Part shown: piece by piece, positions 22,054 through 25,038 of the stretch
How the letters are laid out: each line of letters starts with the position of its first letter
Position numbering within the stretch: the first letter of the stretch is position 1
Assembly (NCBI GenBank): GCA_016869975.1
Contig: VGCZ01000023.1
Coordinates: forward strand, 1-64,000
DNA length: 64,000 nucleotides
Direction: 5' to 3'
DNA from: Alphaproteobacteria bacterium
GTDB lineage: Bacteria > Pseudomonadota > Alphaproteobacteria > Reyranellales > Reyranellaceae
Program-made: the position numbers and the translations under genes
Notes under the pieces: model-generated
What the model was told of the DNA's origin: nothing
The model's database searches: none
What the model saw: only the letters and a program-made list of their open reading frames with translations

Positions 22054-22601
22054 CGACGACCTCCAATCGCCGGTGGTGTCGCAGGCGCCGCCGGGGGCGG
22101 CGGCGTGGCAGCTGGTTGCGACGGCGGCTCATCCTCGTCGATACCCGAGGTCACGGGCTCGGCGACCGCTGGCTTGGCCGGTGAAGGACTGGAGGCTGGC
22201 GTTTTCACGCCAGCCTCCGTTCGCGCCGCGGCGGGGCGAGGAATCGCCGACGCTGAGGGGGCGTCGGCCTTTGAGGGGGCGTCCGACCCGGATTTTCCGG
22301 TGTCTGTGGCGATCGCCCCGCCCGCGCGCCGCGGCGGAATCTGGTTGATGGCGCCGATCTGGCGCATCGTGATGGGTTGCAGACGGATGTACTTGGCGTT
22401 GAGCGCCTCGATGCGGTTGACCTCGCCGAGATGCGCCCACTCCACCCGAAGGATGTTGGTCGCGCGCTGGTTCTCGACGATTTGCCGGTTGAGCGCCTCG
22501 AGCCGCTCCTCCAACCGCCGCTCGTGATACTTCACGACGAACAGGCCGATGCCGGTGAGGATCGCCGCGACGATCCAGAACACGACGCCGCGGTTGATCA
22601 T
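22050..22601 (-). CDS. ftsL: FtsL-like divisome protein with Pro/Ala-rich C-terminal extension
   Basis: A small bitopic protein expected to form the FtsQBL complex that activates FtsWI. The N-terminal membrane helix ([18 protein letters not shown]) is followed by a charged coiled coil (residues 25-60) and the segment [13 protein letters not shown]. The first 90 residues match the FtsL plan. The remaining 90 or so are Ala/Pro/Glu-rich low-complexity sequence not found in E. coli FtsL (121 aa). The position between rsmH and ftsI fixes the identity better than sequence similarity does. It overlaps both neighbours by four bases. Confidence 0.88.
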
Positions 22602-23560
22602 GCCGCGCCTCCTGTTCTCTCACCGACTCGCAGCTTGGCCGAGCGCGCGCGCGGATTGCGCGCGATCTCCGCCGCGCCAGGCTCGATCGGCCGGCGCGTG
22701 ACCAGCCGCCAGCCCGGCCGGCGTGGATCGACGCGGCGCGCATCAGGGAGATGGCGCGACGGACGCGGGCCTTCCTCGGCGCGGCCGCGCAGGAAGCCCT
22801 TCACCAGGCGGTCTTCCAGCGAATGGAACGAGACGACCGCGAGCCGGCCGCCGGGCGCCAACGCGCGCTCGGCGGCGGCCAGGCCGCGCTCGAGCTCGCC
22901 CAGCTCGTCGTTCACGTGGATTCGCAACGCCTGGAAGGTGCGCGTCGCCGGATCGATCGCCGCCCGCGACGCCGCCGGCCCCAGCGCGCGACGCACGATA
23001 TCGGCGAGCTGGCCGGTGCGCTCGATGCGCGCGAGCCTGCGCGCGCCGACGATAGCGCGCGCGACGCGGCGCGACTGGCGCTCCTCGCCGTAGCGGTAGA
23101 TCAGGTCGGCGAGCTCGCCTTCCTCGGTGTCGTTGACCACGTCGGCCGCCGACGCGCCATTCGAGGACATGCGCATGTCGAGCGGACCGTCGAGGCGGAA
23201 CGAAAAGCCGCGCTCGGCGCTGTCGATCTGCATCGACGACACGCCGAGATCGAGCGTCACGCCGTCGACCGTGCCGGGCGCCACGTCGTTGGCCGCCAGC
23301 AAAGTGTCGAGGTCGCCGAAGCGGCCCTCGATCAGCCGCAGGCGACCGGCGTATTCGGCGACGAGAAGCTGGCCGGCATCGATCGCGGTGGGGTCGCGAT
23401 CGATGCCGATCACGCGGCAGGACGCCGCGCCCAGCAGCGCACGGGTGTAGCCACCCGCGCCAAAGGTGCCATCGACGAGGAGCGCGCCATCGCGCGGCGA
23501 CAGCGCGCCGACGACTTCCTCGACGAGGACGGGGACGTGAGGGACCGGCATCGCGCTCAT
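22598..23560 (-). CDS. rsmH: 16S rRNA (cytosine-1402-N4) methyltransferase RsmH
   Basis: N4-methylates C1402 of 16S rRNA with SAM (formerly MraW). The 320-residue protein starts [13 protein letters not shown]. It has the SAM loop [54 protein letters not shown] and the C-terminal [17 protein letters not shown]. The ATG at 23560 overlaps the mraZ stop (ATGA). Confidence 0.97.
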
Positions 23561-24063
23561 CGCCCGTCTCCGGGCAGCGGCACGACGCGCCGGCCGGCGA
23601 TACGCGCCATGAACCGCTCGCGCTCGCGCTCGGCCTGCGTCGCCCAGGCAGCGGCGGTCCAGATCTGGAAATAGGAATTGCGGCCGACGAAGGCGAGCTG
23701 ACCGGGCTTCTCGCCGCCGCCACCAACGCCCAGCGACGACCACATCGTCGCCGGCAGCGACAATCGACCTTCGCCATCGAACGACACGTCGATCGCCACG
23801 CTCGACAAGTAGGCCGCGTCGTTGTCGCCCTCGACGAAGAGCTCGGTCTCCAGCGTGCCGGCGCGCGCTTCGCTGTCGCTGCGCAGCTTGGCCATCAGCT
23901 GGCCAAAGCCGCCTTTGCCGCGCGCGTCGATCGCGGCGTGGGTCAGCGACGGGAAGGCGATGAAGCCGTCGAAGCCGTCCTGGCTGAGATGGGCGCGCCA
24001 AGCGGCCGGGACGGAAACCCGTCCCTTGCCGTCCACCTTCATCAGGTATGTGGATAGGAACAT
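23557..24063 (-). CDS. mraZ: Transcriptional regulator MraZ
   Basis: An AbrB-fold DNA-binding protein that represses its own dcw operon in E. coli (established there). The 168-residue protein starts [19 protein letters not shown]. It has the two internal SpoVT/AbrB repeats, each with a D-x-x-G-R-(V/L)-S-(V/L)-P core (DGKGRVSVP and DGEGRLSLP). The ATG at 24063 has a G-rich ribosome site (GGGGGATGGG) just upstream. The C-terminus is extended with charged residues. It heads the dcw operon. Confidence 0.96.
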
Positions 24064-24147
24064 GTCCCATCCCCCATGCGCCCGGTCTTTGAGCCCCCTC
24101 CGCCCCACGCGGAACCGGTGGCATCCCACGCCGACATCGGCGGCTTA

Positions 24148-24172
24148 CGGGATATCATGGGATATCATGGGA
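24148..24172. promoter_or_regulatory. mraZ: Predicted MraZ box: three GGGA repeats at 10-bp spacing
   Basis: The + strand carries CGGGA (24148), TGGGA (24158) and TGGGA (24168), each followed by TATCA in the first two units. This gives the spacing TGGGN-N5-TGGGN-N5-TGGGN. E. coli MraZ binds direct TGGGN repeats with 5-nt spacers upstream of mraZ (established). The array starts 85 bp upstream of the mraZ ATG and overlaps the predicted -10. Here the TGGG strand is the one opposite to transcription. Confidence 0.75.
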
Positions 24173-24187
24173 AAAAGCGGGCGTCAA
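24159..24187 (-). promoter_or_regulatory. Predicted sigma70-like promoter of the dcw operon
   Basis: On the minus strand, TTGACG (24187-24182) lies 17 bases before TATCCC (24164-24159). The -35 matches the consensus well; the -10 keeps only TAT. The predicted start would give a leader of roughly 90 nt before mraZ. Overlap of the -10 with the MraZ box fits autorepression. Confidence 0.55.
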
Positions 24188-24394
24188 ACCCTTGCGTGGG
24201 CAAAAATGGACGTTTGGAGAATGGGTTAGCTTCAAACTTCTCAGGCTGGCCACCCCCGCTAATGGTGCGGCCCGATGCGGTCACCCTCTACAGCCTGCGG
24301 AAACAACGACCAAAAATACACGATGAGCATATATCACATGCGTGTCGTGGATTGAATCACGTTTCGTTCGATGCGTCGACCGGTTACGGCGCAG

Positions 24395-24436
24395 AAAAAG
24401 GGCCGCCGGGCGGCGAGACGCATCCGCCCGGCGGCC
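24395..24436 (-). terminator. Intrinsic terminator after the small exported protein gene
   Basis: On the minus strand, GGCCGCCGGGCGG (24436-24424) pairs perfectly with CCGCCCGGCGGCC (24413-24401) around a 10-base loop, followed by CTTTTTCTG. It begins 15 bases after the stop codon at 24451 and insulates the mraZ promoter from upstream transcription. Confidence 0.9.
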
Positions 24437-24450
24437 TCATACCGGCCGGC

Positions 24451-25038
24451 TCACTGCAGCGGTGACTCGACCGCGCAAACCGTGTTGTCGACGTAGAGCT
24501 GACCCTGCGGTCCGCGCGCCGGGGCCTCGACACGCTGACCCGGCGCGATGCCGCGCAGCGTGATCTTGGCCTCCTCGACCAGAAGGCGGTCATTGTTGAA
24601 TCGGCAGCTGATCTGGGCGTCGATGGCGCGCTCGCCGTTGTTGGCGAGGATCAGCGTGGCGACCCATCGCTCGCGGTCGACCAGGCGCAACGACGGCGTC
24701 TCCAGCGTGACGATCGGCACCGAGCCGCCCGGGCGCGAGAGCACCGGCACCGTGCCGATCACCCTGACATCAGGCACCTGGATCGACACCGTCGGCGTGC
24801 GCACCACTTGCTGACGCGGATCGAAGGCGCGGTCTTGCGGCAGCACCGGCTTCGTGTCGGGCTGGCCGACATTGTCGGGCGTCCAGACCTTGCCGGTCTC
24901 GTCGCGGAAACCGGCCGCGCCATCGATCGCGCCGCGCGGCGGCGGATCAAGCTGCGCCAGGGCCGGCACAACGGGCGACGCGACGGTCGCCAGCCCGGCG
25001 AGGATAGTGACGGTCTTGCTCAGGGTCGAAGCGCGCAT
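24451..25038 (-). CDS. Hypothetical exported protein (195 aa)
   Basis: No family recognised. A Sec signal peptide is clear (basic N-terminus, hydrophobic core, predicted cleavage after PALA near residue 28). A Pro/Asp-rich linker (30-80) leads to a beta-rich domain with the segment ERWVATLILANNGERAIDAQ and a pair of cysteines at 145 and 188 that could form a disulfide in the periplasm. GGAGAAGACC precedes the ATG. It ends at a strong terminator and is transcribed alone or with the small lipoprotein gene upstream. Confidence 0.85.
   Translation of the reverse strand: MRASTLSKTVTILAGLATVASPVVPALAQLDPPPRGAIDGAAGFRDETGKVWTPDNVGQPDTKPVLPQDRAFDPRQQVVRTPTVSIQVPDVRVIGTVPVLSRPGGSVPIVTLETPSLRLVDRERWVATLILANNGERAIDAQISCRFNNDRLLVEEAKITLRGIAPGQRVEAPARGPQGQLYVDNTVCAVESPLQ

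Follow-up and report, generated by a model that had tools for sequence, protein, structure and literature searches.

A putative MraZ operator superimposed in inverted orientation on the dcw promoter of Alphaproteobacteria

The operator of E. coli mraZ1p and its MraZ boxes were reportedly described by Eraso et al. in 2014. Few regulators of bacterial cell division are as widely conserved as MraZ, and its mechanism is known from few species, with an operator located downstream of the promoter. In E. coli, where the protein represses its own operon via tandem repeats (PMC7761207), TGGG boxes with a 10-bp period precede mraZ as the first gene of the dcw cluster and have the same direction as the coding strand (TGGGAAATTGTGGGGCAAAGTGGGAATAAGGGG), starting after the -10 element (NC_000913 89520-89634). 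A similar arrangement is found at the PmraBc site of B. cenocepacia, where EMSA experiments have proven the binding of MraZ to four repeats with a 10-bp period in front of mraZ, and where the site is positioned downstream of the -10 and overlaps the transcription start, with a GTG polarity that, by the description of the paper, is forward (PMC7761207). The ring-forming MraZ proteins of mycoplasmas, as represented by cryo-EM structures from M. genitalium (9r4j, 9sz7), also combine the same fold with a four-box direct-repeat operator before mraZ, but they differ in the sequence of the box (AAAGTG[T/G]) and in their reported role as activators. A further known case is the UpsM/dcw promoter of the alphaproteobacterium R. 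sphaeroides, whose transcription start was mapped by dRNA-seq, 5' RACE and reporter fusions to a position 268 nt upstream of mraZ, at the head of a long leader with a terminator and an sRNA, and in whose description control by MraZ plays no part; long leaders of this kind are a general trait of Rhodobacteraceae (PMC5089854).

We have analysed a 64-kb stretch of alphaproteobacterial DNA, referred to as the window, which contains an mraZ gene at the head of its dcw cluster, immediately followed by rsmH in the same orientation. Its relevant features are the following:

24149 to 24181, + strand: four-box array with its TGGG polarity on this strand, opposite to mraZ; proposed MraZ operator, from sequence and conservation.
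24182 to 24187, - strand: TTGACG, the -35 hexamer of the dcw promoter, which immediately precedes box 1; from sequence and the class-wide spacer.
24159 to 24167, - strand: extended -10 element TGaTATCCC, with its CCC forming the third box; from sequence and class comparison.
24152, - strand: predicted transcription start (about +/-2), with a 5' leader of about 89 nt; deduced from the -10.
24402 to 24416, - strand: terminator-like hairpin with T run, separating the dcw promoter from the gene that precedes it; by consensus match only.
23557 to 24063, - strand: mraZ, 168 aa, MraZ family (PF02381).
22598 to 23560, - strand: rsmH/mraW, next dcw gene, start codon approximate (PF01795, 322.5 bits).

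The + strand between positions 24148 and 24187 reads CGGGATATCATGGGATATCATGGGAAAAAGCGGGCGTCAA and contains GGG tracts at 24149-51, 24159-61, 24169-71 and 24179-81, at a spacing of exactly 10 bp. The original prediction had described three GGGA units at this spacing, two of which share the spacer TATCA. Its account of the spacing, of the three GGGA units and of the repeated spacer is correct, but the count is too low by a fourth box, GGGC, which had escaped attention, as had the extended form of the -10 and the fact that promoter and array are locked in phase. Read on the strand of mraZ, the region becomes TTGACG-CCCGCTTTTT-CCCATGATAT-CCCATGATAT-CCCG. If at least three direct TGGG-type boxes with a 10-bp period upstream of mraZ are taken to define an operator of this kind, the locus offers four. 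Within the window, four GGG or CCC tracts in register occur a single time, at 24149, and a GGGA-N6-GGGA-N6-GGGA pattern free of mismatches is equally found once; when the 300 nt upstream of mraZ are shuffled by dinucleotides, a four-in-register array appears in 0.065% of cases (frequency 0.00065 per 300 nt). A looser search of the window for TGGG-N6-TGGG-N6-TGGG with mismatches found 10 sites compared to 5.6 expected, which is not significant by itself, and the evidence for the array thus lies in its exact register and its conservation, which together rule out an origin by chance.

On the minus strand, the array is adjoined by the -35 element TTGACG (24187-24182), which is followed after a 17-bp spacer by TATCCC (24164-24159), with a TG at 24167-24166 completing the extended -10 inside the array. 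TATCCC is a poor -10 that is far from the TATAAT of the E. coli consensus, and a stock promoter scan of the window does not include the pair TTGACG/TATCCC among its matches because the hexamer breaks the rule of that scan for a T at position 6. The case for the promoter is therefore a comparative one. In 90 loci of the class, sampled at about one per family, the spacer between a TTGA and a TGnTAT located within reach of each other is 17 in 41, 18 in 21 and of other length in 2 (62 of 64 pairs at 17 or 18), and the offsets of the -35 and the -10 are both found at fixed phases of the 10-bp array, which therefore places the two elements exactly two boxes apart. The overlap of the array with the -10 of a minus-strand dcw promoter, as originally claimed, is thus borne out and is kept across the class.

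In the order of the window, 70 of the 76 genomes searched yielded an mraZ; the array is retained in the same orientation in all 30 loci that were examined for it (L001-L030). Absence of the repeats from close relatives had been named beforehand as an observation that would count against them, and the relatives instead support an array of the MraZ type. In the class, 85 of the 90 loci contain a significant reverse array (shuffle p<=0.05) within 300 nt of mraZ, and the numbers of loci scoring at least 11 of 12 at periods 9, 10 and 11 are 0, 79 and 1, respectively. Among the others, L064 has its reverse array at -356, outside the 300-nt scan, L069 carries a forward array, L095 an apparent degenerate reverse one, and no significant reverse array is found within 300 nt of mraZ in L043 and L056. 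Conversely, in a sample of 31 Gammaproteobacteria (thirty loci and E. coli K-12), 28 arrays are forward and none is reverse, with the boxes located downstream of the -10. This form, which is that of E. coli and Burkholderia, is found neither in the window nor as the general pattern of its class, where the boxes point the other way and occupy the -10 and the spacer. The box itself is polar and alike in both classes (ATGGGAT in the alpha and GTGGGAA in the gamma form). Judged from these comparisons, a TGGG strand opposite to mraZ is the alphaproteobacterial rule and not an oddity: the original prediction was right about the opposite strand and wrong in calling it unusual. Its suggestion that MraZ might read either strand is not supported, as the box is polar and the array flipped as a whole, and the same box could be bound in the same way. 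The array appears to have been inverted and relocated as a unit, and we see no sign in the sequences of MraZ reading another strand of the box.

A few loci depart from this pattern. L327 (G085, family f12) and L069 (G315), both binned as Alphaproteobacteria, encode a divergent MraZ and carry a gamma-like forward GTGG array; these could be natural re-inversions, cases of gene transfer or of mis-binning, and they suggest that orientation can change in evolution. The family of L327 with its divergent MraZ probably represents sphingomonads. In L333 and L353 of the same family f12, short forward boxes of the TGGGGCAAA type adjoin reverse TCCC boxes, which makes mixed or converting arrays possible.

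The array is tightly associated with mraZ. Its core CCCATGNTATCCCA is present in 58 of the 115 class genomes searched, with 61 sites in total and thus close to one per genome, compared to a single match of the reversed control, and all 30 of the sites that were fetched are located upstream of an mraZ and on its strand. In the genome of the window, no second full array was found; partial matches elsewhere either reside in long stop-free frames or are devoid of some of the units, and we have thus rejected the idea of other MraZ targets with a full array in this genome. Where no mraZ was found, none of 19 scorable rsmH loci reaches 11 of 12 in a scan covering three times more sequence, versus 79 of 90 loci with mraZ. 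The array accompanies mraZ and disappears along with the gene, with a remnant persisting in the reduced genome of L283, where three units (CCCATTGACGCCCAGCTATTCCCATGTTAT) remain before rsmH. Worn promoter-array remnants in front of rsmH are seen in L267, L270, L275, L277 and L278 as well as in L283, and they look like relics of an MraZ operator that has since been lost. In L278 and L267, a worn core and the promoter are left, resembling CCCATGGTAC. Partial arrays without mraZ such as that of L283 imply that some of the conservation may be that of the promoter and not of the operator. Worn cores are what would be expected if the same bases served as promoter and operator and the promoter role alone survived.

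The product of mraZ matches PF02381 with 47.6 bits at a cut-off of 23. In its AlphaFold2 model (pLDDT 89.7), the chain is predicted to fold into the two swapped-hairpin (AbrB-like) halves characteristic of the family. The model superimposes on MraZ from M. pneumoniae (1n0e) with a Z-score of 15.8 over 136 aligned residues, with the next unrelated chain at 4.8, and on the MraZ-promoter complexes of M. genitalium, 9r4j and 9sz7, with Z-scores of 15.3-15.6; the entry 9sz7 (15.3) is entitled 'MraZ in complex with 4 box promoter'. A phmmer search of the PDB with the single MraZ sequence of the window returned unrelated weak matches only, and an alignment profile of alphaproteobacterial MraZ was thus needed to reach 1n0e (8.8e-18). 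Invariant in 39 of these proteins are D11, K13, G14, R15, P19, R23, G99 and R100.

The position of the promoter can be compared with the mapped start of R. sphaeroides. The combination of promoter and array was found in 103 of 108 loci of Rhodobacteraceae, a family in which the reverse array coincides with the predicted start, with only three recognisable boxes. With the start placed 7 nt after the -10, the median predicted leader is 260 nt, close to the mapped 268 nt; since R. sphaeroides itself is not part of the 108 loci, this agreement holds at the level of the family.

The surroundings of the promoter show further features. The gene upstream (24451-25038, - strand) is followed just downstream by the hairpin at 24402-24416, which would keep readthrough transcription from reaching the dcw promoter. 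Between the array and the start codon, the mraZ leader contains the stretch GGTTCCGCGTGGGGCGGAGGGGGC (24080-24105, - strand), which is conserved in genera g1 and g5. The mraZ mRNA of Caulobacter is listed as a target of the sRNA CcnA, and many CcnA targets contain a GGGG motif (PMC8959179). In genus g3 of the same family (L011-L030), 18 of 20 loci carry a pair of GANTC sites spaced by 11 bp (GATTCCTTGTGGATTC), 24-35 nt upstream of the array, and the -35 TTGAC is degraded to TTGC or TTGT, which possibly reflects a dcw promoter dependent on CcrM and GcrA. The pair is absent from the genus of the window.

We consider it probable that the array is an MraZ operator lying on top of the dcw promoter, which would confer autorepression by occlusion. 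TGGGA boxes that follow each other at one helix turn (10 bp) would present themselves on one face of the DNA, so that the subunits of a ring-shaped MraZ oligomer could contact successive boxes. With TTGACG as the -35 and TGnTATCCC as the extended -10 both lying within the spacers, at a distance of exactly two units (20 bp), MraZ and the sigma-70 RNA polymerase would have to compete for the same DNA. Most likely, a ring of MraZ would bind to the four boxes, keeping the polymerase off both elements, resulting in negative autoregulation. The main mechanistic rival is a MraZ that binds the array and activates or only modulates the promoter, as described for mycoplasmas (PMC7761207), and help of this kind might be needed at a -10 that is weak by consensus. 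This we regard as unlikely, since the boxes overlie the -10 and the spacer instead of preceding the -35, which favours occlusion, and since the E. coli protein represses through its array (PMC7761207).

Other explanations would dispense with MraZ as the ligand. The conserved blocks might be a core promoter only, or the site of NtrX, CtrA or GcrA. Part of the array is indeed promoter, cores like CCCATGGTAC outlast mraZ in L278 and L267, and NtrX controls mraZ in R. sphaeroides (PMC7240162). Yet the boxes extend past the -35 and -10 and keep their 10-bp period also at positions where a promoter element would not be expected, and the outer boxes erode in genomes lacking mraZ. GCA-N9-TGC, the published motif of NtrX, occurs once in the window, at 24327-24341, and is no commoner upstream of mraZ than in the control (10 versus 9 of 120 loci); for CtrA, neither TTAA-N7-TTAA nor TTAACC is found near the dcw promoter of the window. 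We thus view a promoter or another regulator as the sole cause of the conservation as quite improbable. Still harder to defend is a G-quadruplex on the template-side strand that would control the promoter. The four GGG tracts with 7-nt loops fit the canonical G3N7G3N7G3N7G3 pattern, and such an element was reported downstream of the S. aureus mraZ promoter (PMC11796246). However, a quadruplex would need neither a period of 10 instead of 9 or 11 nor the conserved T before and A after GGG, and four G tracts that could form one on that strand are found in only 42 of the 90 class loci, while the 10-bp array is general; in 26 of the 90, no more than two consecutive GGG units are perfect and the array is still recognisable.

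Returning to occlusion by MraZ, we are inclined to view the alphaproteobacterial dcw promoter and the MraZ operator as a fused element that is inverted relative to its counterpart in Gamma- and Betaproteobacteria. The opposite TGGG strand would reflect an array that, relative to the forward, downstream one of the gamma form, was reversed and shifted onto the promoter in one piece, and direct competition of MraZ with sigma-70 would replace action from a downstream site. The forward arrays of L327 and L069, as occasional re-inversions, would then show that the orientation of the operator is free for a ring-shaped regulator, and the locus may thus serve as a natural test case for whether such regulators care about it. 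Whereas MraZ operators as such are known, their inverted, promoter-embedded form across a class is apparently new: the literature searched, which was limited in coverage and may have missed an earlier mention, contained no relevant report of inverted MraZ boxes and none on the structure of MraZ with its operator. With such an operator throughout the class, the E. coli picture would not be transferable to Caulobacter, rhizobia, Rhodobacter and their kin, which would have a simple mechanism for autocontrol of dcw, and starts of dcw transcription would become predictable from sequence alone. In one further locus, L309, two copies of CCCATGATATCCCA are located 250 bp apart upstream of a single mraZ (G088:C6:190731 and 190981), constituting what appears to be a doubled promoter-operator.
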